Part shown: positions 9,833-29,259 of the stretch, piece after piece
How positions within the stretch are numbered: position 1 is the stretch's first letter
Layout of the letters: each line of letters starts with the position of its first letter
Origin: Cyclobacteriaceae bacterium
GTDB taxonomy: Bacteria; Bacteroidota; Bacteroidia; Cytophagales; Cyclobacteriaceae
DNA: 46,369 nt
NCBI GenBank assembly: GCA_024644875.1
Contig: JAHEGY010000026.1
Location: 1 to 46,369, forward strand
Direction: 5' to 3'
Program-made: the position numbers and the translations under genes
Notes under the pieces: generated by a model
What the model was told of the DNA's origin: nothing
Seen by the model: the letters and a program-made list of their open reading frames with translations, nothing else
The model's database searches: none

Positions 9833-9861
9833 TTAGTAAAAAAAATAATCCGTATTAGGCT

Positions 9862-10950: not shown

Positions 10951-11016
10951 AATACTACTATTATGAATTTATTATTATGGTGATTGTTTGTAATCATTTG
11001 CATAAGGATTTATAAT

Positions 11017-12075: not shown

Positions 12076-13071
12076 TTAAAGATTTTTGATGATTTCCCAG
12101 ATTTCAGGATTCACGGGAATTCCGAATTTTTGATTTTCAATTCTTGTTAAAAGTGTTTTTTCACCCGGATAATATGTTTTCTCACCATTACCCTTTGGTG
12201 CAGAGTTATGCAGATTCTGTACTACTTCCTGAATAATACCTGAAGAATATTTATTATCCAGCCATTTCATATTAATCGCAATAAAGACTTGTGAAAGACC
12301 GTATTCCTCACTTCTTGATCCAACCCGAACCGTAGGATCGCCTTTAGCCAGAATGGCTGCCAATATATCCAGGATAAAAGAAAGTCCTGATCCTTTCCAG
12401 AATCCTATTGGTAATGCACTTTCATTACTTATGATTTCCTGTGGATCCTTAGTCAGGGATCCAATACCATCCAGGCCACCAACAAATTCCAACTCTTTCC
12501 CTTCATGAGCATAGGCCTGCATCTTTCCGTAAGAATATTGAGACATAGCCATATCGAGGACAATATTTCCCTCTTTTCTTGGTATTGCTAAAATAAGTGG
12601 ATTATTACCCAATACGGGATCCTTCCCACCCCAGGCCACCATATTGGGCTGAGTATTGGTCCAACATATGCCAATATATCCATTATCCGCAGCCTGCCAT
12701 CCATAAGTGCCTCCCCTCATCCAATGGTTCGTATTTGAAAGAGCAACACAGCCGATTCCAGAAGATCCAGCTATCTTCATGGCTTTCGACATACAAGAAA
12801 GTGCATTTAATATACCTGGTCCGAGGTTGCCATTCCATTGTTCTATATTTCCATAGTTATTAATCTTTTCAGGTTCCTCCTTAACTTTCACTATTCCTTT
12901 TTTAATATCATTAATGAACCTGGGAAACCTGTTCAATCCATGAGAATAAACGCCATCCAGGGAAGACTCTGTAAATACTTTGGACAGGATTCCGGCCTTT
13001 TCCGGCGTAAATCCATGATCAAGTAATATATGATTCAGGGTTCCCTGAATTTCCTTAAATGAGATTCTCAT
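12076..13071 (-). CDS. Malate/L-lactate dehydrogenase family (Ldh2/YiaK-type) oxidoreductase
   Basis: NAD(P)-dependent 2-hydroxyacid/2-keto acid oxidoreductase of the Ldh2 family, which includes 2,3-diketo-L-gulonate reductase (YiaK) and ureidoglycolate dehydrogenase. Family blocks are visible: DGVYSHGLNRFPRF near the N-terminus with the catalytic His, SNTNHWMRGGTYGWQA, GICWTNTQPNMVAWGGK, NNPLILAIP, and GFWKGSGLSFILDILAAIL near the C-terminus. The ATG at 13071 is preferred to an upstream TTG at 13089 that would overlap the creatininase stop. The gap to that gene is 14 bases, so the two are co-transcribed. A keto-gluconate or keto-gulonate substrate would fit the sugar-rich surroundings (inference). 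Confidence 0.88.
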   Translation of the reverse strand: MRISFKEIQGTLNHILLDHGFTPEKAGILSKVFTESSLDGVYSHGLNRFPRFINDIKKGIVKVKEEPEKINNYGNIEQWNGNLGPGILNALSCMSKAMKIAGSSGIGCVALSNTNHWMRGGTYGWQAADNGYIGICWTNTQPNMVAWGGKDPVLGNNPLILAIPRKEGNIVLDMAMSQYSYGKMQAYAHEGKELEFVGGLDGIGSLTKDPQEIISNESALPIGFWKGSGLSFILDILAAILAKGDPTVRVGSRSEEYGLSQVFIAINMKWLDNKYSSGIIQEVVQNLHNSAPKGNGEKTYYPGEKTLLTRIENQKFGIPVNPEIWEIIKNL

Positions 13072-13085
13072 TATTATGTGCAAAT

Positions 13086-13880
13086 TCAATCTATGTATAG
13101 ATCTTCCGGATCAGTCTTGTCCAGTTCAATCAGGAATTCAGTAATTTTCGGAATGATCTTCCCAAGATAATTCTTTCCTTTTTCTTCAGAAGACTTTGAT
13201 GGATTACCGATTCCAGTATCCCTGGATACTTTCGTCCACTCCCTCGGAGCCCACAACCATCCTTCATGCCGTCCATGAAATTTGAGTTTTTTACTGGCTC
13301 CATCACCGGCTTCTTTCAATGGCAATACCCAGTCTGGCGCGATATGCATCATTATACTCGTTTCCATTTCTCCGGCATGATCGCCTGTATCTTCAAAATA
13401 CTTCTTCCAATCACCTTCAACCAGGTACCAGTTGATAGTGCCTATGAAGAATCCCGGATAATCAGCTTTTATCTCCCGGATCATTTGCCTGAAATCATTT
13501 CCGCCATGCCCATTTAATACAATTAATTTCTTAATCCCCTGTCCATTGAGAGAGTCCACAATATCCCTCAATACAAATGCCTGAGTCGAAGGGTTCATAT
13601 TAATGGTTAATTTGATATCCAGCTGCTGTGTATTCACGCCATAGGGCACAGTTGGCAAAACTGCTACCTTCACATTTTCCTCCCAAGCTTTTTTAGCGGC
13701 TTCTGCAGCAATATAATCACATTGAATATTATCGGTACCATAAGGTAAATGATAGTTATGGGCTTCTGTTGCCCCCCAAGGAAGCATTGCTATAGAATAG
13801 TTGGTTTCTTTTACCGATTTCCAATTATTTTCATTGAGAATGTAAGGTCTGGGTGGGTTCTTATCTGATCTTTCTGTCAT
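13086..13880 (-). CDS. Creatininase family hydrolase
   Basis: Metal-dependent amidohydrolase-like enzyme of the creatininase family. All metal motifs are intact: GATEAHNYHLPYGTD (residues 36-50), NGHGGND (123-129) and DHAGEMETS (167-175). The family is broader than its name and includes creatininase, formylpyrimidine deformylases, MftE and, as I recall, the inosose ring-opening hydrolase IolN of Thermotoga. First gene of a two-gene operon with the Ldh2-family dehydrogenase. Divergent from an NCS2 purine permease, so a purine-breakdown role is an alternative to keto-sugar hydrolysis. Length 264 aa is normal. Confidence 0.9.
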   Translation of the reverse strand: MTERSDKNPPRPYILNENNWKSVKETNYSIAMLPWGATEAHNYHLPYGTDNIQCDYIAAEAAKKAWEENVKVAVLPTVPYGVNTQQLDIKLTINMNPSTQAFVLRDIVDSLNGQGIKKLIVLNGHGGNDFRQMIREIKADYPGFFIGTINWYLVEGDWKKYFEDTGDHAGEMETSIMMHIAPDWVLPLKEAGDGASKKLKFHGRHEGWLWAPREWTKVSRDTGIGNPSKSSEEKGKNYLGKIIPKITEFLIELDKTDPEDLYID

Positions 13881-13998
13881 TGTTCTTTTTTATTTTTATT
13901 CATTCGAAATTTCAATATGGTGCATATAATGAATGTTATTTATAATCCTGATTTTTTATATCTCTTGTTATATAGGTTAATAATAATCTTTGATTCGC

Positions 13999-14010
13999 TA
14001 CAAATTTGTA
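13999..14010. promoter_or_regulatory. Palindrome in the creatininase/permease divergent region
   Basis: Perfect 12-bp palindrome TACAAATTTGTA, about 120 bases from each start codon. It could be an operator or an AT-rich coincidence. Confidence 0.3.
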
Positions 14011-14131
14011 TTTTTTTACCCAATCATTATAAACAGTAGCCTGTTTTATTTGATCTGATCACATTTTTTATAATATAGTAAAATTAAATTATCTGCATAT
14101 TTTTGTTTTATTAAAATCCTCATTTTTATCG

Positions 14132-15424
14132 ATGATCGATCGATTTTTCCGGATTAAAGAAAGGAATACCAGCCTGAGGCAGGAATTAATCGGAGGGCTA
14201 ACTACTTTCCTTACGATGTCCTACATCATATTCCTACACCCGAATATGCTTGCTGAAACGGGTATGGACAAAGGTGCATTAATTACGATAACATGCATCG
14301 CTTCATTTATCGGGACACTAATTGTTGGAATATGGGCGAATGTACCTTTTGCACTTGCCCCGGGCCTGGGATTAAATAGCTTCTTCACATATTCTGTCGT
14401 AATTGGACTGGGCGTAGACTGGCAGACTGCCCTGGGGGCTGTATTTATTTCCGGAATATTATTTCTTATCCTGACTTTCTCCGGGTTCCGGGAAAGAATA
14501 GTGCATGCTATACCATTATCTTTACGATTGGCCGTACCGGCAGGCATAGGCTTGCTGATCACCTTTGTGGGACTTAAAAATATGGGATTGATAGTAAGCA
14601 ATTCCTCTACCCTCGTGCAAATGGGAGAGATGTCAAGCACACTAATAATCAGTCTTCTTGGCTTGTTAATAATCATTATTCTTGAAATAAAAAAAATAAA
14701 GGGAAGTATTCTTCTGGGTATAATATTCATAGTGATTGCAGGGATGATATTAGGGCATATTCATGTTCCTGAGGTTTTTATTTCTTCCCCCCCATCGATA
14801 GAGCCTGTCGTTTTTAAGTTAAATATTCTTAAGGCCCTGAAGATCGGTTTTATAGGTGTGATTTTTTCCTTTCTTTTCGTAGATCTGTTTGATTCCGTGG
14901 GTACAATTATAGCCTGCGCTTATGAGGCAAAGCTTGTAAAAAAAGACGGAAACATCTCCGGTATTGAGAAGATCCTTGGTTCTGATGCAGTATCAACTGT
15001 AATTGGTTCCCTACTGGGAACTAGTACAATAACTACCTATATCGAATCAGCCTCAGGGATTTCTGCAGGGGCAAGAACAGGCCTTTCATCAATAATCGTT
15101 GGCCTTCTCTTCTTAATCGCCCCTTTTTTTGCACCCCTGATTCAAACCGTTCCCGGATACGCAACAGCGCCTGCTCTTATCATTGTCGGCGTATACATGT
15201 TCAGGAACATTCAAAAAATCAATTTTACAGATCTGGATGATGGTATTCCGGCATTTTTCACCGTTATAATTATGCCTTTTACAAGCAGTATAAGCATGGG
15301 GCTTTCCTATGGCTTTCTTTCTTATATTTTTCTAAAAATTATCAGCGGTAAATTCAAGCAACTATCCACAATTTTATGGATAATAGGCATTTTGTGCCTG
15401 ATTAACCTGATAATTACTTCCTGA
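14132..15424 (+). CDS. NCS2 family purine permease (AzgA-type adenine/hypoxanthine transporter)
   Basis: Inner-membrane nucleobase transporter of 430 aa with about 12-14 helices. The start RFFRIKERNTSLRQELIGGLTTF-type segment, TMSYIIFLHPNMLAETGMD, the FALAPGLGLNSFFTY block and the late DLFDSVGTIIACAYEA and GTSTITTYIESASGI blocks are characteristic of AzgA/PbuG permeases for adenine, guanine and hypoxanthine. The ATG at 14132 follows an ATCGATGATCGATCGAT-like run and gives the normal N-terminus. Purine uptake would link with the creatininase-family gene across the divergent region or with the nucleoside hydrolase at the far end of the window (inference). Confidence 0.92.
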   Translation: MIDRFFRIKERNTSLRQELIGGLTTFLTMSYIIFLHPNMLAETGMDKGALITITCIASFIGTLIVGIWANVPFALAPGLGLNSFFTYSVVIGLGVDWQTALGAVFISGILFLILTFSGFRERIVHAIPLSLRLAVPAGIGLLITFVGLKNMGLIVSNSSTLVQMGEMSSTLIISLLGLLIIIILEIKKIKGSILLGIIFIVIAGMILGHIHVPEVFISSPPSIEPVVFKLNILKALKIGFIGVIFSFLFVDLFDSVGTIIACAYEAKLVKKDGNISGIEKILGSDAVSTVIGSLLGTSTITTYIESASGISAGARTGLSSIIVGLLFLIAPFFAPLIQTVPGYATAPALIIVGVYMFRNIQKINFTDLDDGIPAFFTVIIMPFTSSISMGLSYGFLSYIFLKIISGKFKQLSTILWIIGILCLINLIITS

Positions 15425-15641
15425 ATTCCACCAAAGACATTAAACACCAATGGATCCTCACAAAACGCTGAGCATCATCTATCCAATTAATGTTTGTAAA
15501 ATCTCTGATGGGTTTTAATCCGGATATTCTTAAAAAGGAAATCGTCTTTAACAATCCTTAGATGGGATATGCTACCATAAATGTTGGTTATATATATTCC
15601 TGGAAAAGTATCCCCGGAATGATTTTAAATGTGGATAAGTG

Positions 15642-15672
15642 AAAAAAACGAGGCTGTAATAAAACAGCCTCG
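15642..15672 (-). terminator. Rho-independent terminator of the YbaK-like gene
   Basis: On the minus strand CGAGGCTGT, a 6-nt loop and ACAGCCTCG are followed by seven T. Arms are at 15664-15672 and 15649-15657. It begins 13 bases after the stop codon at 15686. Confidence 0.85.
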
Positions 15673-15685
15673 TGTAAGTTAATGA

Positions 15686-16150
15686 TTATAAAACTGAGAA
15701 TTTAAGAATTTTTGGCTGCACAAGCCTTTCAAAATCCGAATAGTTCATTCGGATCAACTCAGAATGCGTACCAGCATTAAATGCTATTTCAACATCCTCG
15801 GTTAAGCTCTGGGCAACATATACCTCCATATTGTATAAATTCCCAAATGGTGGCATAGCACCCAGCTCACAATCCTCAAATATTTCTTTGAATTCTGATT
15901 CATGTGCCAAGACCACATCTTCATTGCCTGTTACTTCTTTTAATAAATGGAAATCGACATGAAAAGTCGCCGGCAAAACAGCCATTGTGAGTTTATCGTT
16001 GATTTTAATAATAACCGTTTTTGCCATCTCTTTACCTTTTATATGTGCAGATGCCGCTACCTGTTGCGCAGTAAATGCTTGAGAATGAGTTATTGTAACA
16101 TATGGCACATTATTATCGTCAAGATATTTCTTAAGTTTTCCACAAGCCAT
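15686..16150 (-). CDS. YbaK/prolyl-tRNA deacylase-like aminoacyl-tRNA editing protein
   Basis: The ATG at 16150 (MACGKLKKYL) is preferred over an upstream in-frame ATG, giving 154 aa. The YbaK fold is recognised by HSQAFTAQQVAASAHIKGKEMAKTVIIK, split here into the FTAQQVAA and GKEMAKTVI parts, the latter carrying the conserved Lys used to position the substrate. GAMPPFG and the final NAGTHSELIRM block also match. Members hydrolyse mischarged tRNA such as Cys- or Ala-tRNA(Pro). A single-gene unit with its own terminator. Confidence 0.88.
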   Translation of the reverse strand: MACGKLKKYLDDNNVPYVTITHSQAFTAQQVAASAHIKGKEMAKTVIIKINDKLTMAVLPATFHVDFHLLKEVTGNEDVVLAHESEFKEIFEDCELGAMPPFGNLYNMEVYVAQSLTEDVEIAFNAGTHSELIRMNYSDFERLVQPKILKFSVL

Positions 16151-16488
16151 TATTATCTTATTTATTTTCCTGAATTGAATATGGAATAACATTTCCTTTC
16201 AGAAATGCAGTAAACCTAATTTTTTAGATTATCGAAAAGCAAACTGGTCTTTTGCTCATAGACCAAATATTATTGCAAAACATTTACTGGAACTTTCTCC
16301 AAAAATTCCAGTTCCAGGTATTTATAAGTATAAGATAAAAAAAAGTTTATCATCCTTCAAGTTAAACCGCCATTTTTTGGCATTGAAAGATGACAAACTT
16401 ATTGTAGCTCTTCTATCCTGCTGGGTAAAGTTCTATGCTTCGTAGAATTTTATGAAATTCCGAAAAAAAATTCACATTCTTTGATAAA
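16151..16488. other. Non-coding gap with several small inverted repeats
   Basis: No convincing reading frame. Four short inverted repeats: TGGTCT/AGACCA (16245-16265), ACTGGAA/TTCCAGT (16286-16312), GATAAA/TTTATC near 16340, and an 11-bp stem with a 3-nt loop, AAAGTTCTATG/CGTAGAATTTT (16427-16451, one G-T pair). The last lies 38 bases after the PIG-L stop at 16489 and may end that transcript. Confidence 0.5.
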
Positions 16489-17364
16489 TTACTGACCGAG
16501 CATCGGAAATAACTCGCGGATCTCAGCATCACCTGGTCTTCTTCCATACTCGCATATCTCAAATGTTTCAGCATGCTTAACCAGTTTACTTCGATCATCT
16601 CCGTACCATTTATCCAGGGAAGCTCTCGCTTCTGCTGAAAGAGTTCCTCCTCCCCATATATTCCCAAGCCATTTTAATCTTTCCTCAGGATCTTCAGGAA
16701 CATTTTCTAGTTGCCCGACAGTCCATGGAAGCCAGGAGAAAAACTGAGATTCATGAGCAGCCATTCCATAAATTTTCTGATCAAAAACATCTGTAATATC
16801 CACGGCTATATCCGGAGTGAATGGATTTGGTTTTTGGAACCGATCTCTTGTATAAAGGAAGACAGGATTTTTCTTTAATGGCGGTGTATCGGGGGCTATA
16901 TTTGGAACAATCACCATATAGGCTGCATCCTGTAGCAAAACGCCCGTATATCTATGGTCGGGATGATAATCATTAGGTCGTGGACCAATAACAACATCAG
17001 CGTTCCATTTCCTGATCAGGCGAATTACTTCCAGTCTGTTTTCTAAGGTTGGCATTAATTCTCCATCATGATTATCCAGGGCAATGTATTTGACACCATA
17101 TCGTTTCCCGGCTTCTTCAGCCTCGGCCCTTCGAATTCTCGCCAGGGCACCGCCTCCCATATCCTGGTGACCAGCATCTCCATTGGTCAGGGAAACCATC
17201 ATTACATTATGTCCCATTTCAGACCACAGAATTGCAGTTCCAGCATCACTGTCCGGGTCGTCCGGGTGTGCACCAAAAATGATAACATTAATCTTTCGAT
17301 CCTGTGCATTTAGGCTGATAAAACCTGCCAATAATAGAAGAAATAATAAAGAGAATTTTTTCAT
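16489..17364 (-). CDS. Secreted PIG-L family deacetylase, copy 1
   Basis: Zinc-dependent N-deacetylase of the LmbE/PIG-L family, predicted periplasmic from its signal peptide (residues 1-20, ISLNAQ). The metal and base motif is AHPDD (32-36) and the second metal motif is HPDH (134-137, in PNDYHPDHR). The following DxDAG-TAI segment lacks one Gly present in the tandem copy. Family members act on GlcNAc-type groups (GlcNAc-PI, chitobiose, bacillithiol and mycothiol precursors). The C-terminal ~110 residues (AAHESQFFSWLPWT ... FEICEYGRRPGD) are shared only with copy 2 here and probably shape the substrate site. Third gene of an oxidoreductase-PIG-L-PIG-L series, 105 bases after copy 2. Confidence 0.9.
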   Translation of the reverse strand: MKKFSLLFLLLLAGFISLNAQDRKINVIIFGAHPDDPDSDAGTAILWSEMGHNVMMVSLTNGDAGHQDMGGGALARIRRAEAEEAGKRYGVKYIALDNHDGELMPTLENRLEVIRLIRKWNADVVIGPRPNDYHPDHRYTGVLLQDAAYMVIVPNIAPDTPPLKKNPVFLYTRDRFQKPNPFTPDIAVDITDVFDQKIYGMAAHESQFFSWLPWTVGQLENVPEDPEERLKWLGNIWGGGTLSAEARASLDKWYGDDRSKLVKHAETFEICEYGRRPGDAEIRELFPMLGQ

Positions 17365-17469
17365 AGTTATATCCTTAGTTAATAAATTAATTCAATTTTT
17401 CCACTAAAATATTAAAATTGAACTGCAGCTGAGGTGTAAGGCGAAAATAAATTACAAATTTATTATGAT

Positions 17470-18348
17470 TTACTTTATCATGGGGAACAATTTCCTGATC
17501 TCATCGTCACCCGGACGCCGCCCGTACTCACAAATCTCAAAAGCCTCTGCATCGGTAATTAAAGCAGCCTTATCCTTACCATACCATTTAACAAGGGATT
17601 TTCTTACTTCTTCAGTTATCCTTACCTTCCTGTATTTTGCCAGATAGTCAAGCCTGTCTTCTTCATCTTCTGGAATCTCATCCAGTCTTCCGGAGGTCCA
17701 GGGCAGCCATTCAAAATGCTGAGATTCATGGGCAGCCATTGTATATATCTTTTGTTTGTAAGTATCTGATATGTCTACTGCGATATCTGGTGTAAACGGA
17801 TTCGGTTTTTGAAAGAAATCCTGAGCATATAAAAATATTGGATTTTTCTTCAAGGGAGGGGTATCAGGAGCCACATTAGGCACTATGACCATATAAGCAG
17901 CATCCTGAAGGACTATCCCACAATTCCGGTGATCAGGATGATAATCATTGGGCCTTGGTCCAACAACAACGTCAGCATTCCAATCTCTGATCAAACGAAT
18001 AACCTGTAATCTGACATGCAAGGTAGGCATTAGCTCTCCGTCATGATTATCCAGCACAACATATTTCACTCCAGCCCTTCTACCAGCCTCTTCCGCTTCT
18101 GCTCTTCGAATTCTTGCCAGGGCTCCACCGCCCATGGAAAAGTGTCCCGCATCTCCATTGGTTAAAGCAACAAACATTACATTATGCCCCATTTGCGCAA
18201 ATTTTATTGCCGTTCCCCCGGCATCAGCATCGGCATCGTCGGGATGCGCACCAAATACAATAACATTAATTTTATCATCCTGAGCATATGATGATACTGC
18301 AATTAATACAAAAAACAAGGTGAAAAAATTTCGAATCAGCTTTTTCAT
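17470..18348 (-). CDS. Secreted PIG-L family deacetylase, copy 2
   Basis: Paralogue of the gene just downstream; by eye roughly two-thirds of residues are the same along the whole length. A signal peptide (about residues 1-22, SSYAQ) sends it to the periplasm. AHPDD is at residues 34-38 and is followed by the complete DADAGGTAI turn; the HPDH motif lies near 137-140. The shared NDYHPDHR, DTPPLKKNP, FQKPNPFTPDIAVDI and ICEYGRRPGD blocks show a recent tandem duplication. It starts 15 bases after the Tat-type oxidoreductase, so the two are translated from one message. An amino-sugar deacetylase role is inferred from the family and from nagB nearby. Confidence 0.9.
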   Translation of the reverse strand: MKKLIRNFFTLFFVLIAVSSYAQDDKINVIVFGAHPDDADADAGGTAIKFAQMGHNVMFVALTNGDAGHFSMGGGALARIRRAEAEEAGRRAGVKYVVLDNHDGELMPTLHVRLQVIRLIRDWNADVVVGPRPNDYHPDHRNCGIVLQDAAYMVIVPNVAPDTPPLKKNPIFLYAQDFFQKPNPFTPDIAVDISDTYKQKIYTMAAHESQHFEWLPWTSGRLDEIPEDEEDRLDYLAKYRKVRITEEVRKSLVKWYGKDKAALITDAEAFEICEYGRRPGDDEIRKLFPMIK

Positions 18349-18363
18349 AATAATAATTCAGGT

Positions 18364-19764
18364 TTATAGAAGTTGCATATTCACAGGGTCCCAGCCGACG
18401 GCTTTATCTTCAAAGTAACTGAAATTCGACAGCAATGCTGCTCCGGCAGCCCGAAGTCCGTACGTGGTGTCCTCTACCACTTTCCTGTTCCCACGCATCG
18501 CACCAAAAAAGGTAAGGAAATGATCATGGTCTGCACCTTTATAGGTACTAGAAGCTTCAAATACCGTATCCTGTGGATTTAACATTTTACCCCGTTGTTG
18601 ATCATACTTCGCATCATACATTTTGTTAATTTCTTTCTGTATGTTTTCAGAGTAGGATTTCAGGGCATAACCGGTGGGTCTCCATCCCATATCACTATGG
18701 GTTACCATCACGGATCTCCAGCCAACGACCATGGCACCCTCGGTACCAATTAATTTAAAAGCTCCACCACCACCTCCGCCGGCAACAAAATTGATCCTTA
18801 GCACAGCATTAAAGGCTGGATGATTTTCTGCTTCCGGGAAGTCATATAGGGACATCATAATATCAGGCACATCCCTCCCATCTTTCCAATATCTTAATCC
18901 GCCTGTTGATTTTGCCCTGACAGGGCCAAAGGAATCAATAACAAAATTCATGGTAGAGAAGGAATGGACAAATAAGTCACCGGCTACCCCGGTTCCATAA
19001 TCCTGGTAGTTCCTCCATCTGAAAAAGCGAACAGGATCATATTCCACTTTTGGGGCAGATCCCAGGAAAGTATCAAAGTCTATATTATCCGGATCAGCAT
19101 CGGGGGGTATAGGATATTGCCAGGCACCCTCTGAGGAATACCTGTCATTATGTATCTCCACCATAACCAGGTCACCTATAGCTCCTGATTTGTACAATTC
19201 CCTGGCCTTCGCCGCATAGATACCAGACATTCCCTGGCTTCCTACCTGCAAAACCGACCCGGTATCCTGCTGGACTTTGATCAGGTTATGGCCTTCCTGT
19301 ATGTTTTTAATCATAGGCTTCTCGAGGTATACCGCTTTCCCTGCTTTCATGGCATCGGTGGCAATACGCTCGTGCCAATGGTCCGGAGTCGCGATGATGA
19401 CAGCATCAATATCCTCTTTTGCCAGGATTTCTCTATAATCCCTGGTAGTAAAAATATCCTGGCCATAAAGTTCATTAGCTCTGGTTAACCTCCCTTTATA
19501 CAGATCACAGGCAGCAACAAACTCAACACCATCAACACCAACAGCATTGGCAGTATCACCAATTCCCTGTATTCCAAATCCAATTGTGGCAAGCCTTATT
19601 TTATCGTTGGCAGAATAGGTTTTCTTGACATATTCAGGTTCTAATATTTCCTTCCTGATACCTGTCGATCGTGCTGCTAATATATTTGGAACCGAAAGTG
19701 CAGCCGTTCCAATGGAGACCTTAGTTAAGAAATCTCTTCTTGTTGATTTTTTCCTGGAATTCAT
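18364..19764 (-). CDS. Tat-exported Gfo/Idh/MocA family oxidoreductase, copy 1
   Basis: NAD(P)-dependent sugar oxidoreductase with a twin-arginine signal (STRRDFLTK then a hydrophobic stretch ending near residue 30). The Rossmann dinucleotide loop is GFGIQGIG (62-69) and the EKP motif, whose Lys is catalytic in the family, is at 148-150. The C-terminal domain holds a Gly-rich loop (VAGGGGGGAF). Tat export allows the protein to leave folded with its cofactor bound. Secreted members commonly oxidise or open glycosidic sugars through 3-keto intermediates. First gene of the minus-strand operon with two PIG-L deacetylases; divergent from a Tat-type TIM-barrel protein. Confidence 0.9.
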   Translation of the reverse strand: MNSRKKSTRRDFLTKVSIGTAALSVPNILAARSTGIRKEILEPEYVKKTYSANDKIRLATIGFGIQGIGDTANAVGVDGVEFVAACDLYKGRLTRANELYGQDIFTTRDYREILAKEDIDAVIIATPDHWHERIATDAMKAGKAVYLEKPMIKNIQEGHNLIKVQQDTGSVLQVGSQGMSGIYAAKARELYKSGAIGDLVMVEIHNDRYSSEGAWQYPIPPDADPDNIDFDTFLGSAPKVEYDPVRFFRWRNYQDYGTGVAGDLFVHSFSTMNFVIDSFGPVRAKSTGGLRYWKDGRDVPDIMMSLYDFPEAENHPAFNAVLRINFVAGGGGGGAFKLIGTEGAMVVGWRSVMVTHSDMGWRPTGYALKSYSENIQKEINKMYDAKYDQQRGKMLNPQDTVFEASSTYKGADHDHFLTFFGAMRGNRKVVEDTTYGLRAAGAALLSNFSYFEDKAVGWDPVNMQLL

Positions 19765-19780
19765 AATATGAAAAAATAAA

Positions 19781-19800
19781 TGATAAACTATTTTTTATCA
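19781..19800. promoter_or_regulatory. Inverted repeat in the oxidoreductase/isomerase divergent region
   Basis: TGATAAA (19781-19787) and TTTATCA (19794-19800) with a 6-base spacer, 16 bases upstream of the minus-strand oxidoreductase start. It is placed as an operator would be for the divergent pair. Confidence 0.4.
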
Positions 19801-19878
19801 ATTTATGAAATAAGAATTGATTTGAATAAAAAATTGTTATTAATTACAGATCTGTATCTAAACGATTATATCAATTTT

Positions 19879-20796
19879 ATGAAAACATCGCGTCGAAAAT
19901 TCTTAATTAAAACAGGTACCATATTGGCAGGGGGACTGTCATTTAAACATAGCCTGGTACTAGGCTCTGAAAAATACATCTCCAAAGAAAACAATGTTAC
20001 CGTTGGAGCACATCCATGGATTTATGCCGCCGAATTACCGGATTATGATATAAGCCCGGCATTAGATGAAATATTCCAGGGGATCAAATTCGCAGGATAC
20101 GATGGGGTGGAACTTATGCATCACCCCCTGCGAAACCACAAGACTGCCCTGATCATCTCCGAATTGAAAGACAGATACGGACTACCGGTCATAGGAACTT
20201 CCTATGGCGCTGATATGTGGGATCAATCCAAACATCAGGAAATTCTGGATGATGTTGAAAATATCATTAATAATCTTGCAGTTGTAGGTGGGAGAACTTT
20301 GGGGACTTCTGTTGGGAGGGCGCCGGAAAAGAAAACAGAAAAACAACTAGACAACCAGGCTCATCTTCTAAAAAACATTATTGATATTGGCAAAAAAAAT
20401 GGTGTTGTAATTAACCTGCATAACCATACTTATGAAGTAGAGGATGGTCTTCACGATTTAAAAGGAACACTAAAAAGGATACCTGACATAAAACTTGGGC
20501 CGGACCTGAACTGGTTATTACGTGGTGGTGTCGATCCGCTTGATTTTATTAAAAAATATCAGGATCAAATTGTCTTCATACACATACGGGATGAATTCAA
20601 AGACGGAAAATGGTCAGAATCATTAGGGGAAGGTGATGTAAATTTCAGGGCTATAGGGAAGACATTGAAAAAAATAGAATTCTCAGGCGATCTTGTGGTT
20701 GAACTTGCCCATGAAAATGATTTCGATCCCACCAGGCCGATCCGTGAAAGTTTGAAAATGAGCCGGGAACACGTAAAAAAAACAATGGGCTACTAA
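19879..20796 (+). CDS. Tat-exported sugar phosphate isomerase/epimerase-like TIM-barrel protein, copy 1
   Basis: The ATG at 19879 is chosen because it starts directly before the Tat motif SRRKFLIK; a longer frame from 19780 would bury it. The 305-aa product has the xylose-isomerase-like TIM-barrel pattern: FAGYDGVELMHH, LPVIGTSYG, GVVINLHNHTYEVEDG with a metal-binding NLHNH segment, LGPDLNWLLRGGVDP, IVFIHIRDE and GDLVVELAHEND. Glu, His and Asp ligands expected for a divalent metal are present. Family members epimerise, isomerise or eliminate keto-sugars. Exported copies next to exported Gfo/Idh proteins suggest a two-step reaction on an intact glycoside (inference). Convergent with nagB. Confidence 0.85.
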   Translation: MKTSRRKFLIKTGTILAGGLSFKHSLVLGSEKYISKENNVTVGAHPWIYAAELPDYDISPALDEIFQGIKFAGYDGVELMHHPLRNHKTALIISELKDRYGLPVIGTSYGADMWDQSKHQEILDDVENIINNLAVVGGRTLGTSVGRAPEKKTEKQLDNQAHLLKNIIDIGKKNGVVINLHNHTYEVEDGLHDLKGTLKRIPDIKLGPDLNWLLRGGVDPLDFIKKYQDQIVFIHIRDEFKDGKWSESLGEGDVNFRAIGKTLKKIEFSGDLVVELAHENDFDPTRPIRESLKMSREHVKKTMGY

Positions 20797-20809
20797 ATTA
20801 GCAGCCCAT
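20785..20809. terminator. Bidirectional hairpin between isomerase and nagB
   Basis: ATGGGCT (20785-20791) pairs with AGCCCAT (20803-20809); an inner GCTA/TAGC pairing is a possible alternative. It overlaps the stop codon of the isomerase and lies 15 bases beyond the nagB stop. The T tract is poor on both sides. Confidence 0.55.
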
Positions 20810-20824
20810 CTATATTGGAATCAC

Positions 20825-21637
20825 TTAATCAAGATCCGGAAATTCATTATCAATTATCTGCTCGATTTCCTTAAAATATTTTACGGTCTCAGCCTTCAAT
20901 TCCATGGTGGCTTCATCGTCACAAACAATTACAGCATGTCTGTGCATCTGCAACATAGAGACTGTCCACATATGGTTTACACCTTCTTCAACTACCTGAC
21001 GCAGGGCTCTGGCCTTATGAAATCCATTAATGATAACAACCACTTCACGTGAATCCATAACCGTTCCGACACCTACTGTCAAAGCCATTCTTGGAACAAG
21101 ATGAATATCATTGTCAAAAAACCTTGCGTTGGCTTTTATCGTGTTGAAATTTAATGTTTTGATCCTGGTTCTTGAGGCCAGGGAGGACCCAGGTTCATTA
21201 AATGCAATGTGCCCATCAGGCCCTATCCCGCCAAGGAAAAGTTCTATACCTCCCAACTCTTTCATCTTTGCCTCATAATCAGCGCATTCTTTATCCAGGT
21301 CGGAGGCCATCCCGTTTAGAATGTTTACATTTTCAGCAGGTATATCTATATGATTGAAAAAATTCTCCCACATGAAATAATGATAACTTTGTTCGTGGTC
21401 CTTATCCAATCCGACATACTCATCCATATTGAAGGTGATCACATTTTCAAAATTAACAGCTCTTTCTTTATTGAGTTTTATCAGGGCTTTATATGTCCCA
21501 AGGGGGGAAGACCCGGTTGGTAAACCCAAAACAAAAGGTTTTTCCTTTGTAGGTTTGAAATTATTGATTCTTTCCGCGATGTAATCGGCAGTCCACTGAC
21601 TTAACTGCTGGTAATCTTTTCTGATTATTATTTTCAT
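20825..21637 (-). CDS. nagB: Glucosamine-6-phosphate deaminase
   Basis: Converts glucosamine 6-phosphate to fructose 6-phosphate and ammonia, the step that feeds amino sugars into glycolysis. The catalytic residues fall at the same numbers as in the Escherichia coli enzyme: Asp72 (NMDEYVGL), Asp141 and His143 ([10 protein letters not shown]) and Glu148 (NEPG). [13 protein letters not shown] forms the phosphate loop. At 270 aa it is the standard hexose-type NagB. It is cytosolic, monocistronic, and divergent from a cytosolic Gfo/Idh oxidoreductase across a region with two palindromes. No nagA is visible in the window; the secreted PIG-L enzymes could make it unnecessary by deacetylating outside (inference). 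Confidence 0.97.
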
Positions 21638-21714
21638 ATTTACTAAATTTTAAAAAATCTGATAGTGTGTGATTTACAAATTGAAATGCTGAAAATACCT
21701 AATTTTTGATAAAT

Positions 21715-21730
21715 TACAAATGAATTTGTA
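21715..21730. promoter_or_regulatory. Palindrome in the nagB/oxidoreductase divergent region
   Basis: TACAAAT (21715-21721), spacer GA, ATTTGTA (21724-21730). It sits 78 bases upstream of nagB and 93 upstream of the oxidoreductase. A further TACAAAT half-site lies 40 bases to the left at 21675. Confidence 0.4.
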
Positions 21731-21777
21731 TTATGGATTATAAATTTCAAAATTAAAGTATAAGTATAGGCTTGAAC

Positions 21778-21797
21778 TAAAATAATATATTATTTTA
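21778..21797. promoter_or_regulatory. 20-bp AT palindrome before the oxidoreductase
   Basis: TAAAATAATATATTATTTTA is a perfect palindrome ending 25 bases before the ATG at 21823. It contains only A and T, so chance is a real alternative. Confidence 0.35.
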
Positions 21798-21822
21798 AGA
21801 TAAAATTAATACATTAACGAAT

Positions 21823-22893
21823 ATGAAGAACAATATAAGAGTAGTTGTAGTAGGCATAGGGAATATGGGAAGATCACATGCACTTGCGTACCATAATATT
21901 TCAGGATTTGAACTAGCCGGATTAGTCGATCGCCTGCCGGAGAAAAGAGAAGATCTTTCAGATGAATTAGGTGGAATTCCTCAATTCGATGATTTTGATA
22001 CCGCTCTTGCTGCTACAAAACCTGATGCGGTCTGTATATGCACCTATCCGGATACCCATGCCGAACTTGCCAGGAAAAGTTTGTTGTCCGGTGCCCATGT
22101 TTTTGTTGAAAAGCCCTTGGCAGTAACAGTTGAGGAAGCAGCCGATCTTGTGCAAATGGCTCAAAAAGAAAATAAAAAACTGGTAGTGGGCTATATTTTA
22201 CGGGTCCATCCATCCTGGAAAAAATTTATTGAGATCACTCATACACTCGGAAAGCCACTGGTTATGAGGATGAATCTTAATCAGCAAAGCAGTGGCACTA
22301 CATGGCTTACTCATTTAAATTTAATGAAGTCTATGTCTCCTATAGTGGATTGCGGGGTACATTACGTTGATGTAATGTGTCAGATGACAAGATCAAAACC
22401 AATTCGTGTTCATGCAATTGGTGCCAGATTAACTGATCAAGTCAGTCCGGGGATGTATAATTATGGCCAACTGCAGGTAATATTCGAGGATGGATCTGTC
22501 GGATGGTATGAAGCCGGCTGGGGACCCATGATGAGCGAAGTTTCCTTTTTTGTGAAAGATGTAATAGGCCCGAAAGGTTGTGTCAACATCATGGATGCCG
22601 ATAAAACAGGTCAAAGCGACGACATAGACGGGCATACCCAGACAAACCGCTTAAAGATCCATTACTCCGAGATTGATGATAAACATGAATTGACGAAACC
22701 AGATGAAATAATAAATACTGAAGATGAACCGGACCATCAGGGGTTATGTGATTTAGAACAGGCGTTTTTTTATAATTCGATTGTCAATGATGTCGACCTC
22801 AGAGATCATCAGGAAGATGCTGTGAATAGCCTGAGAATAGTCCTGGCAGCTGATGAATCTTTCAGGACCGGAAAAGTAATTGACCTTCATTAA
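21823..22893 (+). CDS. Cytosolic Gfo/Idh/MocA family oxidoreductase
   Basis: A 356-aa NAD(P)-dependent sugar or polyol dehydrogenase without a signal peptide. The Rossmann loop is GIGNMG (11-16), the EKP motif is at residues 96-98, and the C-terminal domain carries the DCGVHYVDV segment, where the conserved Asp and His of the substrate site are expected. The length and motif layout resemble myo-inositol 2-dehydrogenases and related sugar dehydrogenases, but no single substrate can be named. Its lack of a Tat signal separates it from the other two Gfo/Idh genes in the island. It is followed by a 464-base gap with a structured element. Confidence 0.9.
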   Translation: MKNNIRVVVVGIGNMGRSHALAYHNISGFELAGLVDRLPEKREDLSDELGGIPQFDDFDTALAATKPDAVCICTYPDTHAELARKSLLSGAHVFVEKPLAVTVEEAADLVQMAQKENKKLVVGYILRVHPSWKKFIEITHTLGKPLVMRMNLNQQSSGTTWLTHLNLMKSMSPIVDCGVHYVDVMCQMTRSKPIRVHAIGARLTDQVSPGMYNYGQLQVIFEDGSVGWYEAGWGPMMSEVSFFVKDVIGPKGCVNIMDADKTGQSDDIDGHTQTNRLKIHYSEIDDKHELTKPDEIINTEDEPDHQGLCDLEQAFFYNSIVNDVDLRDHQEDAVNSLRIVLAADESFRTGKVIDLH

Positions 22894-23357
22894 GTTTATT
22901 TAATCTGAAGAAGCCAAAGGACAATTTCGTGAATAAGGAGCCCGGTATTCACTTATAGTTGGACCAACCAGGCGGTCCAATGATTTTATTGGCTTCAAAA
23001 TACCCAATTACATCTTTCCTGTTCCACTCTTCAAAGGGTTTGTTTCTCTTTAGTTATCGGCAAAATCAATCTATTGTTTTTTCAGGATGCAGAATTAGTC
23101 ATAATCCGGCAAAATTACATTTAAGCAGGAATATTCAGGGATCAATCCAATTACAATTGGCTGAGTTTTTACCATGTATTTTGATTATACATTTGCAGGC
23201 GATTTAATTTAAATTGAATAGCACCTTAAAAATGATCTTTATTTGTTTCTAAGATATCACTTTCTTAAATTGAATGATTAGAAGAACAAATTATTGTTTC
23301 TATGTTTATAGTTTTTTGCATTCTTTTTGACATCAATTTTTTAAACATACATAAGAT
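22894..23357. other. Non-coding gap between two oxidoreductase genes
   Basis: Apart from the structured element at 22910-22996 I see no credible gene. The rest is AT-rich. The stretch after about 23200 is the likely promoter and leader of the Tat oxidoreductase at 23358. Confidence 0.5.
22910..22996 (+). ncRNA. Candidate three-way-junction structured RNA element
   Basis: An 8-bp outer stem, GAAGCCAA (22910-22917) with TTGGCTTC (22989-22996), encloses two 7-bp hairpins: GTGAATA/TATTCAC (22929-22935, 22946-22952) and TTGGACC/GGTCCAA (22959-22965, 22974-22980). All three stems are perfect, and the loops are 10 and 8 nt. It begins 17 bases after the oxidoreductase stop. It may be a 3' UTR stability element, a small RNA or a DNA recombination site; the strand is assumed from that gene. 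Confidence 0.45.
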
Positions 23358-24872
23358 ATGAAAAGTAAAAATAAGATGAACCGACGAACATTTATCGGTT
23401 CGGCGAGTGTTACCGCCACAACAATATCTATCGTCCCCCGCCATGTTCTTGGTGGTCCGGGAAGAGTAGCTCCATCAGATAAGGTCACCGTTGCCAATAT
23501 TGGATGCGGGACTCAAGGATTAAGGGAAATGCCGGATATGCTGCAGAATGAGGACATACAGGTCGTTGCCGTTGCTGATCCGAATAAGTTTACCACCAAT
23601 TATCTGGACTGGTCTCCTGATGGGATCAGGAACAGTATTCGAAAAACATTAGATGATCCGGACTGGGGCAGTAATTATAAAGGAATTCCAGGTGGCAGAG
23701 ATATAGGCAAGGAGTATGTTGAAAAATATTATGGAAAGAATACCGCTTCCGGAAATTATAAAGGATGTGCCGCCTATGAAGATTACCGGGAATTATTTGC
23801 TAAGGAAAAAGACATTGATGCTGTCAAGATCATGACCCCTGACCATCATCATGCCTACCTGGCTATTGAAGCAATGAAGAATAATATGCATGTTGTCACC
23901 CATAAACCTATTGCTAACAGGATGCATGAATGGAAACAGGTGTATGAAGCAGCAAAAAAAGCCAAAGTAACTACTCATCTCCTGGCCTGGAGCGACAGAC
24001 CGGAGTATACGCTGGTCAAACAATGGATTGATGACGGTGTAATTGGGACACTGAAGGAGATCCATAACTGGTCATACAGGCCTGTCTGGGAGCAGTGGCC
24101 AAAAAGACCAACAGATACTCCGCCAATCCCGGATGGATTTAATTGGGAATTATGGCTGGGGCCTGTTCAGGATATGCCTTATCACCCACATTATACGCAT
24201 AATGTATTCCGGGGGTGGTATGATTTCGGAGGTGGAAGTATTGCTGACATGGGTCACTATAGTCTGTTCCCATTATTCAGAGTATTGGGAATAGAAACCC
24301 CTCCTGTTGCAGCGAAAGCTTATGGTACCACCCACAGGTACGTTGATGGAAATACCTACAAATGGCTTGACAATGATGTATCATTCCCACAATCCAGTTT
24401 AATACAATTAAGATTCCCAAAACAAGAAACTCTACCTCCATTTAATCTATTCTGGTATGACGGTGGCATGAAGCCCTTTATTCCTGAAGAACTTGCCGTG
24501 GACAATAGAGATATACCGAACGAAGGCATGATGTTCGTAGGCGATAAAGGGAAAATTATAGGAGGATTTCGAGGAGAGAAACCTGAAATTATACCGGCAA
24601 GCAAAAGGGATGCATATTCCGGGAACAAGGAGCTTCCTCCCAGAGAACGGGGAAGGAGATCAGATACCTGGGCACAGGCAATTAAAGAAAACAAGAATTC
24701 CAACGGAAGCTTCCTTTATGCTGGCCCAGTTACTGAAGCGATAAACCTGGGTGCGGTTGCACTCCGGGCTAAGAAAGAAGTTAAATATGATACTGCTTCT
24801 ATGAAGATCACAAATGATGAGGCCGCCAATAAATTCCTGACCAGGGATTATCGAAAAGGCTGGAAAATATAA
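23358..24872 (+). CDS. Tat-exported Gfo/Idh/MocA family oxidoreductase, copy 2
   Basis: A 504-aa oxidoreductase with Tat motif NRRTFIG (residues 8-14) and a hydrophobic stretch to about residue 32. The dinucleotide loop is NIGCGTQG. The usual EKP motif is replaced by HKP (VVTHKPIANRM): the catalytic Lys is kept and Glu is changed to His. The C-terminal domain is Trp-rich (NWSYRPVWEQWPKRP, FNWELWLGP, HNVFRGWYDFGGG). It then reads SIADMGHYSLF, where the conserved His lies. This subgroup of exported enzymes is widespread in Bacteroidota and Planctomycetota. The stop is 29 bases before a Tat-type TIM-barrel gene on the same strand, so the two form an operon and probably act on the same molecule. 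Confidence 0.9.
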   Translation: MKSKNKMNRRTFIGSASVTATTISIVPRHVLGGPGRVAPSDKVTVANIGCGTQGLREMPDMLQNEDIQVVAVADPNKFTTNYLDWSPDGIRNSIRKTLDDPDWGSNYKGIPGGRDIGKEYVEKYYGKNTASGNYKGCAAYEDYRELFAKEKDIDAVKIMTPDHHHAYLAIEAMKNNMHVVTHKPIANRMHEWKQVYEAAKKAKVTTHLLAWSDRPEYTLVKQWIDDGVIGTLKEIHNWSYRPVWEQWPKRPTDTPPIPDGFNWELWLGPVQDMPYHPHYTHNVFRGWYDFGGGSIADMGHYSLFPLFRVLGIETPPVAAKAYGTTHRYVDGNTYKWLDNDVSFPQSSLIQLRFPKQETLPPFNLFWYDGGMKPFIPEELAVDNRDIPNEGMMFVGDKGKIIGGFRGEKPEIIPASKRDAYSGNKELPPRERGRRSDTWAQAIKENKNSNGSFLYAGPVTEAINLGAVALRAKKEVKYDTASMKITNDEAANKFLTRDYRKGWKI

Positions 24873-24901
24873 TAATTGTATGAATATTAACTAAGATTTT
24901 G

Positions 24902-25786
24902 ATGAAAGATAAAATTAAGAAGATTACCAGAAGGGGTTTTATAGAAAAATCTGCAGTACTTGGTGCTGCGGGATTTTTAGTACCTTCCTTACATAAAAAT
25001 TCACGCGCTATGGCTACTCCAAGAATGACCTATGACGATATTTCTCTTGCTCAATGGGCCCTGGTCCAGGAAATCAGGGATGGCAAATGGAAGACCCTGG
25101 ATTTTGCAAAAGTGGCAAGAGAGGATTTTGATTTAAATGGAATCGAATTTGTTAACACCTTGTTCGAAGTGCCTACCGTAAATTACCTGAATCAGTTGAA
25201 GAGTAATGCTGATGAACATGGTGTCAAAATGGTGCTCATAATGGTTGATGCTGAAGGAGATGGTTGTGAACCAACGAAAGAGCTTCGGAAACAATTTGTA
25301 ATAAATCACAAAAAATGGATCGATGTAGCTCATTATCTTGGATGTCATGCCATTCGCACTAATTGTAGGGGCCCGGAGGATGTTGATCCGGATGAGGCTC
25401 TCAAATGGGCTTCTGAGTCCTATAATATGTTGCTTGAATATGCAATACAGGCTAAAATCAGTGTTGTTATTGAAAACCATGGAGGTGTATCCAATGATGC
25501 GGACTGGATGGTTAAGCTATACGATACGGTCGATAACCTGTACTTTGGATCTTATCCTGACTGGAGAAGCCCAAGTGACACATTCAATAATTATGAGTAC
25601 CTGGAAAAAATGCTTCCATGGGCGGATGGCATGTCATACAGAAATCAGCCCAGTGAGGAATTAACAGCTAAGATGATCAAACTCTGCAGAGACTCTGGTT
25701 ATAAGGGCTGGTACGGCATCGAATCCAGTGGCCGGGAAGCCATAGTCCAGGGACGGGAGCTTTTGAAAAAATACCTTGGCATATAA
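24902..25786 (+). CDS. Tat-exported sugar phosphate isomerase/epimerase-like TIM-barrel protein, copy 2
   Basis: The ATG at 24902 is preferred to a TTG directly before it, giving 294 aa. The Tat-like motif TRRGFIEK is followed by AVLGAAGFLVPS. TIM-barrel strands carry the expected metal ligands: FDLNGIEFVNTLF, VKMVLIMVDAEGD, CHAIRTNC, KISVVIENHGGVSND (Glu and His) and GYKGWYGIESSG (Glu). It differs clearly from copy 1, so the two oxidoreductase-TIM pairs are parallel modules rather than a fresh duplication. An isomerase, epimerase or lyase reaction on a keto-sugar is inferred. A 26-bp perfect palindrome follows the stop. Confidence 0.87.
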   Translation: MKDKIKKITRRGFIEKSAVLGAAGFLVPSLHKNSRAMATPRMTYDDISLAQWALVQEIRDGKWKTLDFAKVAREDFDLNGIEFVNTLFEVPTVNYLNQLKSNADEHGVKMVLIMVDAEGDGCEPTKELRKQFVINHKKWIDVAHYLGCHAIRTNCRGPEDVDPDEALKWASESYNMLLEYAIQAKISVVIENHGGVSNDADWMVKLYDTVDNLYFGSYPDWRSPSDTFNNYEYLEKMLPWADGMSYRNQPSEELTAKMIKLCRDSGYKGWYGIESSGREAIVQGRELLKKYLGI

Positions 25787-28587: not shown

Positions 28588-29259
28588 ATGAAAATTAGAG
28601 TTCAGTTGTTGTTGCTGTTTAGCTTTATTGTTATTCCATTATTGGTTGCAGGCCAGACACGAATAATTTCCGGTAGGGTAACATCCTTTAAACAATATCC
28701 GGTTAAAGGCATTACCATAAAAGCCAAGAAAGCCAAAACCGAGACTAAAACAAATAATCTGGGTGAGTTTGAAATTGAAGTAAAGAAAAAGGATGTAATT
28801 AAGATAAAAGAACCCGTTTTCACGGATTATACCCAGAAAATTACGGAAGATACAAAGTCCCTGGATATTAACCTGATTTTTATCAATGACAAAAGAAACA
28901 TCGAAATCGCAGCGGATGCAGGATATATTTCCAGGGAAAATCTGGACTATGGTGTTGAGCATTTATTTGAGGCAAATAACATGTATGCAAATTTTATCAA
29001 TGTTTTTGATGCGATTAAATATGCATTGCCCGAGACTACATTAATTGTTGAGAATGGAAATCGTGCGGTCCAATTCAGGGGGGCCAAAAGCATTCATGGA
29101 AGCAATGCCGCACTCATGGTCGTAGATGGCGTTATAGTTGAAGATGTAACCTTTATCAATCCTCCTCAAGTAAGGAGCATTTCCAAACTCCCCCCTTCCC
29201 AGGCATCTCTTTATGGTGCCAGGGCGGCTAACGGTGTTATAATTATTGAAACCTGGTAA
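28588..29259 (+). CDS. TonB-receptor-like plug-only protein (CarboxypepD_reg-like + Plug)
   Basis: A 223-aa exported protein: signal peptide 1-22 (PLLVAGQ), then a carboxypeptidase-regulatory-like domain (TRIISGRVTSFKQYPVKG ... LGEFEIEVKK) at about 24-95. A TonB-receptor plug-like domain follows at about 130-223 (AVQFRGAKSIHGSNAALMVVDG-type segment ending ASLYGARAANGVIIIETW). These are the first two domains of SusC/RagA proteins. The frame stops exactly where the barrel would begin, and no barrel sequence follows in any frame in the next 200 bases. It is either a deliberate stand-alone plug, which exists in Bacteroidota, or a remnant of a receptor. Monocistronic. Confidence 0.85.
   Translation: MKIRVQLLLLFSFIVIPLLVAGQTRIISGRVTSFKQYPVKGITIKAKKAKTETKTNNLGEFEIEVKKKDVIKIKEPVFTDYTQKITEDTKSLDINLIFINDKRNIEIAADAGYISRENLDYGVEHLFEANNMYANFINVFDAIKYALPETTLIVENGNRAVQFRGAKSIHGSNAALMVVDGVIVEDVTFINPPQVRSISKLPPSQASLYGARAANGVIIIETW

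Follow-up and report, generated by a model that had tools for sequence, protein, structure and literature searches.

What could a bacterium achieve by exporting sugar oxidoreductases alongside deacetylases? The question is raised by positions 16489-25786 of contig C216 from a Cyclobacteriaceae genome (5.06 Mb, 254 contigs, 97% complete); this contig, 46,369 nucleotides in length, is the whole stretch of DNA that was analysed and is referred to below as the window. An earlier note on this DNA had proposed that two exported pairs of Gfo/Idh oxidoreductase and TIM barrel form a single sugar-modifying system with two exported PIG-L deacetylases, NagB, a cytosolic Gfo/Idh and a GH9 protein. We find that the interval comprises two units, unit A (16489-22893) and unit B (the GFO2-TIM2 pair), and that its distinctive part is the order of two genes in unit A, namely the oxidoreductase gene GFO1 followed directly by a PIG-L gene. 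To the reading that unit A oxidises amino-sugar glycosides at C3 and removes their N-acetyl groups outside the inner membrane we assign a probability of roughly 0.45.

All genes named in the earlier note are real open reading frames (ORFs) at the coordinates it gave, as judged from the ORF list and from Pfam and TIGR matches. Those of unit A are listed here (Pfam cut-offs: PF02585, 28.2 bits; PF01408, 24; PF01261, 31.1; GH9, 27.7).

16489..17364, minus strand: PIGL_a, exported PIG-L-family deacetylase (PF02585 77.9 bits, metal motifs)
17470..18348, minus strand: PIGL_b, exported deacetylase of the PIG-L family, immediately downstream of GFO1 (PF02585 86.4 bits)
18364..19764, minus strand: GFO1, Gfo/Idh oxidoreductase of twin-arginine translocation (Tat) type, probable glycoside 3-dehydrogenase (PF01408 60.4 bits, motifs, AL3 profile match)
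19765..19878, no strand: divergent GFO1/TIM1 gap of 114 bp, putative promoter region (from coordinates alone)
19879..20796, plus strand: TIM1, Tat-type xylose-isomerase-like TIM barrel with the fold of IolE, 3-keto-lyases and epimerases (PF01261 78.3 bits)
20825..21637, minus strand: NagB, cytosolic glucosamine-6-phosphate deaminase (TIGR00502 419.1 bits, above the cut-off of 236.9)
21823..22893, plus strand: GFOcyt, cytosolic Gfo/Idh oxidoreductase that may reduce keto sugars (PF01408 108.4 bits)

Conservation of the GFO1-PIG-L pair

In the window, 15 bp separate GFO1 from PIGL_b. Of the 80 named loci, 35 have a gene of the GFO1 kind directly upstream of PIG-L; the gap ranges from -33 to 130 bp and is shorter than 35 bp in 33 of them. 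The 80 loci were retrieved with PIG-L as the best among 235 relatives, and 35/80 is therefore not a rate over genomes. These 35 loci belong to records of Flavobacteriaceae, Cyclobacteriaceae, Cytophagales and Bacteroidales, and many are closely related. Another Gfo/Idh gene occurs within 3 kb in six of the remaining loci, and none in 39; in the 12 Arenibacter loci among the 80, no GFO1 adjoins PIG-L.

A maximum-likelihood tree of 72 proteins gathers the 37 PIG-L-linked GFO1 rows into one group (support 99/100), and the linkage label changes once on this tree in 100% of bootstrap trees. Because 34 of these 37 rows had been found via PIG-L, loci found via GFO1 alone were checked separately. These comprised 25 (window included) of the 28 rows at E up to 1.8e-119 and 11 of 34 further rows, followed down to about 42% identity; this gave 36 loci, 35 with a called ORF, the GFO1 ORF having been lost in L126 (from G053, a genome without a PIG-L match) to a caller that keeps the longest ORF. 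For the 26 rows left out, PIG-L matches in the same genomes are on other contigs or absent. Among the loci found in this way PIG-L adjoins all three clade members (the window, G001 and G447), and a stand-alone PIG-L occurs within three genes in 0 of the 32 loci outside the clade; in one of the latter, L129, a NagB-PIG-L fusion lies three genes from the GFO1 relative. A 3-keto-disaccharide hydrolase is found within three genes of 13 of the 32 non-clade relatives, as against 2 of 38 PIG-L-linked rows (one contig, L104 = L167, is counted twice among the 38 and used once in the tree); the hydrolase label was confirmed as PF06439 on two representatives. The GFO1-PIG-L trait is rare, because PIG-L of the window kind is present in only 8, and GFO1 at an identity of at least 59% in only 2, of the 395 genomes of a class-wide sample.

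GFO1 retains the GxGxxG motif together with E148-K149-P150, D263 and H267, and the last five residues are invariant in all 70 GFO1 rows; Lys, Asp and His of this set are presumably the catalytic residues of the Gfo/Idh family. Sixteen alignment positions mark the PIG-L-linked clade, 11 of which are kept by the window protein (209, 212, 218 and 230 among them). Of the solved structures, the best match to the GFO1 profile is the glucoside 3-dehydrogenase AL3 (8tdf, 114.6 bits), followed by DgpA (106.2 bits), and the match spans the Asp/His stretch. GFO1 is thus probably a glycoside 3-dehydrogenase, as far as sequence can tell.

The deacetylases and export

PIGL_a and PIGL_b are tandem copies (72% identical) with intact AHPDD and HPDH metal motifs, and both belong to PF02585; AHPDD is found in 104 and HPDH in all 105 of the relatives of 270-330 aa. 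The best solved match is PH0499 (3we7, 74.9 bits), with diacetylchitobiose deacetylase (8bgn) at 70.3 bits. A role as bacillithiol enzyme was ruled out, both proteins (106.8 bits, and 111.9 for PIGL_b) scoring below the 182.5-bit cut-off of the BshB1 model TIGR04001. The window does contain a genuine BshB1 at 34887-35600 (294.7 bits), and three of the genome's five PIG-L matches sit on this contig. On a PIG-L tree of 104 proteins the GFO1-linked label needs 11 changes, from which it would seem that the pairing either formed or was renewed more than once, or was often lost. Two PIG-L relatives at 62-65% identity (L236, L237) come from metagenome-assembled genomes (MAGs) labelled Acidobacteriota, where transfer between phyla or a binning error is possible.

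An RRxF[LI] motif lies close to the N-terminus of GFO1 (RRDFL, residue 9), GFO2 (RRTFI), TIM1 (RRKFL) and TIM2 (RRGFI), while the N-termini of both PIG-L proteins are simply hydrophobic and lack RRx[FL]. This motif reading suggests Tat-type export for the first four and Sec-type export for the PIG-L proteins, in agreement with the earlier note.

Neighbours of the pair in unit A

TIM1 has the xylose-isomerase-like TIM barrel of the AL1/BT1 kind of lyase, matches IolE weakly (47.4 bits, cut-off 290) and conserves E78, H181, H183, D209, H235 and E275 in all six sequences compared. Its structural model (predicted local distance difference test score, pLDDT, 84.4) reaches Z 28.2 with IolE (3cny) and up to 27.0 with epimerases; the 3-keto-glucoside lyases (AL1 8tcr, 24.6; 8tct, 24.2) fall slightly under this range of 25-28 for IolE and ketose epimerases. 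Fold ranks, for TIM1 as for GFO1, were not taken as deciding.

The order PIGL-PIGL-GFO1-TIM1-NagB-GFOcyt is very probably kept, at 59-80% identity, in G001, the only other genome of the genus, because contigs C121 (TIM1-GFO1-PIGL-PIGL) and C482 (NagB-GFOcyt) of that assembly terminate in the same TIM1 gene, their ends being 99% identical over 313 bp. The NagB relative there (80%) lies between TIM1 and GFOcyt, and the GFOcyt relative (73%) beside NagB; the genes after GFOcyt differ from those of the window, and GFO2 is not among them. A split of unit A over separate loci in G001 was rejected on account of the shared TIM1 end. Outside the genus there is little to tie TIM1, NagB and GFOcyt to the operon: within 4 kb of PIG-L, a TIM barrel occurs in three of the 35 GFO1-PIG-L loci and NagB in none of them, nor in any of the 80 named loci. 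A 62% relative of GFOcyt directly precedes PIG-L in L238, a Chitinophagaceae MAG.

These figures bear on the strongest of the competing explanations, namely that only GFO1-PIGL and GFO2-TIM2 are functional associations, and that TIM1, NagB, GFOcyt and GH9 adjoin them by accident, these families being very numerous in the genome. We regard this as improbable, if slightly less so than the explanations taken up further on. The genome holds 53 PF01408, 38 PF01261 and 21 PF06439 matches in its 5.06 Mb. A TIM-barrel domain lies at most 2 kb from 13 of the 53 Gfo/Idh domains, against a mean of 2.1 and a maximum of 8 in 2000 draws of random placement under a model that ignores operons and contig ends; the pairing of the two families is above chance yet ordinary in this genome, and the two pairs of the interval carry no special signal. 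The scarcity of TIM barrels and NagB at GFO1-PIG-L loci likewise favours chance. Against it are the arrangement kept in G001 (two genomes, one genus), made less readily accidental by the shared TIM1 end, and the GFOcyt relative before PIG-L in L238.

The GH9 protein beside the locus (51.1 bits), which the earlier note had counted as part of the set, was rejected as a core member; a single other GH9-like match, a weak one (25.7 bits, L137), was seen among the labelled loci. One further gene of the window may be a distant member of unit A:

13086..13880, minus strand: creatininase-family amidohydrolase, possible distant unit A member (PF02633 195.1 bits)

Its relatives (66-71% identity) directly follow PIG-L in six of the 80 loci, and the window gene is not adjacent; it adjoins an Ldh_2 dehydrogenase, the two together spanning 12076-13880. 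Relatives of TIM1 (42-47%) were seen close to sulfatase genes in two genomes (L142, L144), where one sulfatase of each, when checked, matched PF00884 and SGSH_C; this gives a hint of sulfated substrates.

Dehydrogenase or complete glycosidase

A second explanation, which we consider unlikely, is that GFO1 is itself a complete glycosidase of the GH109 or GH188 type, dependent on nicotinamide adenine dinucleotide (NAD) that is recycled within one catalytic cycle; we take GH188 to be the family number of the 8qc sulfoquinovosidase. The N-acetylhexosamine set free would then be deacetylated by PIG-L before uptake, with no need of a free keto intermediate or a lyase, and the cofactor problem discussed below would be solved. 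The fold of the GFO1 model is compatible with this. Structures nearer to it than AL3 (8tdh, 31.7) include 1,5-anhydrofructose reductase (Z 35.2), the inositol dehydrogenase homologue 7d5n (34.6) and, tied with the latter, the glycosidases 8qc8 (34.3) and 8qc5 (34.1); 1h6d, the glucose-fructose oxidoreductase of Zymomonas, is also among the fold neighbours. The GH109 chains 2ixa and 6t2b are matched by the GFO1 profile at 50.9 and 50.3 bits. The AL3 dehydrogenase, however, is matched at more than twice these scores, and the 3-keto-disaccharide hydrolases near 13 of the 32 non-clade relatives would be superfluous for a self-contained glycosidase.

Neighbourhoods of PIG-L relatives and the likely substrate

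The surroundings of PIG-L relatives elsewhere point to amino sugars as the target of the family. In L243 (G370; 1215-18238) the order is extracytoplasmic function (ECF)-type sigma factor, FecR, SusC, SusD, PIG-L, PIG-L, major facilitator superfamily (MFS) transporter, ROK kinase, PcRGLX-like protein and NagB-PIG-L fusion, with a sodium symporter also in the row; the MFS protein resembles GluP, FucP and NagP, every score being below cut-off, and the fusion matches PRK02122 at 1008 bits. In L195 (Maribellus maritimus 5E3; 1132-15398) SusC and SusD are followed by a Gfo/Idh, PIG-L, PF06439, a relative of TIM2, a second Gfo/Idh, a TIM barrel and a membrane acetyltransferase resembling NagX (134.9 bits, against a cut-off of 480); excerpts of PMC9007349 present NagX as a glucosamine transacetylase. 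Among 16 further loci from relatives, three (L105, L108, L110) have a ROK gene near PIG-L. The non-clade GFO1 relative of L129 (G005) is accompanied by a Gfo/Idh, a creatininase, the NagB-PIG-L fusion and a gene of HGSNAT type. The neighbour labels come from profiles built for this analysis, part of which were confirmed with Pfam.

Two other proteins were met in these surveys. At L153:7429-9390 (contig C3 of the host genome itself) a 653-aa NagB-PIG-L fusion (PF01182 78.1 bits, PF02585 65.1 bits) lies one gene from a Gfo/Idh, and at L108:4557-7397 a 946-aa protein near PIG-L and the ROK kinase combines pyrroloquinoline quinone (PQQ) dehydrogenase, cytochrome c and 3-keto-disaccharide hydrolase domains. 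A Pfam search of L122:8738-9934 and L123:7150-8412 gave no match. The host genome has a second contig of exactly the window's length, C215 (46,369 bases), whose first 200 bases are absent from the window.

The 35 GFO1-linked loci themselves have few such neighbours within 4 kb of PIG-L (ROK in two, creatininase in four, TIM barrel in three, 3-keto-disaccharide hydrolase in one), and for the GFO1-linked operon the case for amino sugars draws on the PIG-L family and on the presence of NagB in the genus. SusC (14 loci), SusD (11) and HGSNAT (5) are all found among the 45 loci that lack GFO1, and not one of the 35 with it has any of the three. This weakens our favoured reading and strengthens a third explanation, in which the operon is not nutritional: the exported GFO1 and PIG-L would alter surface glycan or peptidoglycan of the cell itself, or have a glycosylated toxin or signal as their target. 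The PIG-L relatives include small-molecule deacetylases such as BshB1, in keeping with such a role at the sub-threshold score given above. We nonetheless hold it to be as unlikely as a complete glycosidase, given that NagB and GFOcyt adjoin the operon in the two genomes of the genus, that the PIG-L copies of the window group with SusC-linked ones, and that catabolic genes neighbour PIG-L in L243 and L195 and the GFO1 relative in L129.

The second pair as a separate operon

Unit B consists of two genes:

23358..24872, plus strand: GFO2, Tat-type Gfo/Idh belonging to the BT2158/AL3 branch, with changes at catalytic positions (PF01408 61.0 bits; BT_2158_fam and AL3 matches)
24902..25786, plus strand: TIM2, Tat-type TIM barrel in an operon with GFO2 (PF01261 59.9 bits)

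Full-length orthologues of GFO2 (61-79%) and TIM2 (69-78%) are adjacent in all four genomes that have them, out of 59 searched, the host's own included; G009, a fifth genome, carries only an N-terminal part of GFO2 (65% identity across residues 3-108), and TIM2 is not next to it. In G001 the pair lies on a separate contig, C114, with different genes before GFO2, and in the stretches fetched from G028 and G032 there is neither a GFO1-clade gene nor PIG-L near it. Unit B is a separate oxidoreductase/TIM-barrel operon that stands beside unit A in the window. The two units are linked in Maribellus maritimus, where the TIM2 relative of L195 (67-68%) is one gene from PIG-L in a SusC/SusD locus.

GFO2 matches the BT_2158_fam model at 282.2 bits over most of its length, below the cut-off of 750, and AL3 (8tdf) at 170.7 bits. 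It has HKP in place of EKP and Tyr at the position of the catalytic His, as in all four orthologues, while TIM2 and four close relatives carry SYRNQ at a site that reads SAKSH, SAKSR or SAKSN in three paralogues. With changed sites in both partners, the pair may perhaps catalyse a new reaction.

The view that both pairs belong to one system therefore fails at the second, which is sited elsewhere in relatives; the co-occurrence expected by the earlier note holds for the GFO1-PIG-L tie and, in G001, for the order of TIM1, NagB and GFOcyt. Its 3-keto idea similarly gains from GFO1, with AL3 as best solved match and relatives near 3-keto-disaccharide hydrolases, and is less sure for GFO2, with Tyr for the catalytic His.

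A proposed route and its difficulties

From the genes of unit A we infer every reaction of the following route. GFO1 would leave the cell folded via Tat, with its nicotinamide cofactor bound, and oxidise a glycoside at C3. The Sec-secreted PIG-L, to judge by its family and neighbours, may take the N-acetyl group off the same sugar or a neighbouring one. A ketone at C3 would make the C2 proton acidic and so permit beta-elimination of the glycosidic bond, either by TIM1, a likely lyase or epimerase, or by chemistry alone. After uptake and phosphorylation of the sugar, GFOcyt could reduce the ketone, and NagB would deaminate glucosamine 6-phosphate.

Several observations weigh against this route. 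Firstly, its chief gap is the re-oxidation of the cofactor outside the membrane. Free NAD is not expected outside the inner membrane, and GFO1 would consequently need either a bound cofactor with an electron partner, of which the glucose-fructose oxidoreductase of Zymomonas is an example, or a closed cycle as in GH109. Secondly, the interval shows no recognisable SusC/SusD, kinase, glycosidase or sugar transporter. The earlier note had likewise reported no SusC/SusD there, and the ORF list and profiles yield no such pair in 16489-25786, so that the locus is not a polysaccharide utilization locus by that definition; a 223-aa protein at 28588-29259, whose only matches, both weak, are to CarboxypepD_reg and a TonB plug, resembles a SusC without its barrel. 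Thirdly, the pair is neither universal nor uniform: 39 of the 80 PIG-L loci are without any Gfo/Idh within 3 kb, the SusC, SusD and HGSNAT neighbours are confined to loci without GFO1, the PIG-L copies of the window group with SusC-linked Prolixibacteraceae copies (98/92) and not with the main GFO1-linked group, and the window GFO1 differs at 5 of the 16 clade-marking positions (203, 268, 335, 372, 398). Lastly, assignments by homology are distant. By fold, AL3 ranks below 1,5-anhydrofructose reductase and the NAD-dependent glycosidases; GFO1 and TIM1 fall far short of equivalog cut-offs (GFO1 scores 130.9 bits against 750 for BT_2158_fam, NF058561); and GFO2 lacks the catalytic His in register.

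The least probable of the readings, and a doubtful one, is that PIG-L replaced the 3-keto-disaccharide hydrolase in the clade, GFO1 oxidising C3 of an N-acetylhexosaminide and PIG-L deacetylating the 3-keto sugar, whereupon the 2-amino-3-keto sugar would fall apart or be eliminated from the aglycone; the hydrolase counts (2/38 against 13/32) and the 16 clade-marking positions agree with it. If true, several Bacteroidota orders would have a way of breaking down chitin-like or glycosaminoglycan-like material by oxidation and deacetylation, with no glycosidase involved.

Extracellular degradation of intact glycosides by oxidation has only recently joined the hydrolases and lyases on which the field was built, and the C3 oxidation and N-deacetylation proposed for unit A, if correct, would extend it to N-acetylated sugars by way of an exported oxidoreductase-deacetylase operon. 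The role of the many Tat-type Gfo/Idh proteins of Bacteroidota is also turned into a two-gene question, in a host genome with 53 Gfo/Idh matches, exported or not.

Comparison with known systems

To our knowledge, no PIG-L belongs to the described pair of Alistipes AL3 (glucoside-3-dehydrogenase) and AL1 (3-keto-beta-glucopyranoside-1,2-lyase), which, together with BT1 of Bacteroides thetaiotaomicron, has the same two folds as GFO1 and TIM1 (PDB 8tdf, 8tdh, 8tcr, 8tcd and 8tct, with functions taken from the structure titles). TIM1 differs in scoring somewhat higher against IolE and epimerases than against AL1.

The BT2156-BT2160 locus of B. thetaiotaomicron resembles unit A, as proposed here, in uniting an exported Gfo/Idh, BT2158, with a cleaving partner, the 3-ketotrehalose hydrolase BT2157. 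BT2158 is presented as a periplasmic glycoside 3-dehydrogenase in excerpts of PMC11300592, and those of PMC9007349 and PMC12385236 have a Gfo/Idh oxidising intact glycosides in the periplasm before a second enzyme cleaves them; deletion of BT2157 or BT2158 caused no growth defect on the raffinose family, according to an excerpt of PMC11501099. The interval studied here, in which no 3-keto-disaccharide hydrolase was found, differs also in having an exported deacetylase after GFO1 and altered catalytic positions in GFO2. In the Agrobacterium route, as excerpted in PMC10628242, 3-keto-glycosides undergo TIM-barrel elimination by AtOGE, hydration by AtHYD and reduction by a Gfo reductase. This last enzyme is a model for GFOcyt as a reductase; the substrates there are phlorizin-type O-glycosides, and the excerpt mentions neither an amino sugar nor a deacetylase.

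The PIG-L/LmbE proteins (archaeal PH0499 and diacetylchitobiose deacetylase, BshB1, the PRK02122 fusion) share family and metal motifs with those of the window, which differ in looking secreted, following a Gfo/Idh gene and failing the BshB1 cut-off. The NAD-dependent glycosidases GH109 and GH188 (sulfoquinovosidase) show that a Gfo/Idh fold can break glycosidic bonds (8qc entries; 2ixa, 6t2b), while GFO1 is nearer AL3 in sequence. In saying that no pathway with this exact set was known, the earlier note had overstated the case for the oxidise-then-cleave core, which is published; an exported PIG-L paired with a Gfo/Idh was not found described in a literature search covering titles and abstract beginnings for part of the matches. 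The chemistry of oxidation followed by cleavage is already known from BT2158/BT2157 and AL3/AL1, and its tie to an exported deacetylase appears to be the new element.

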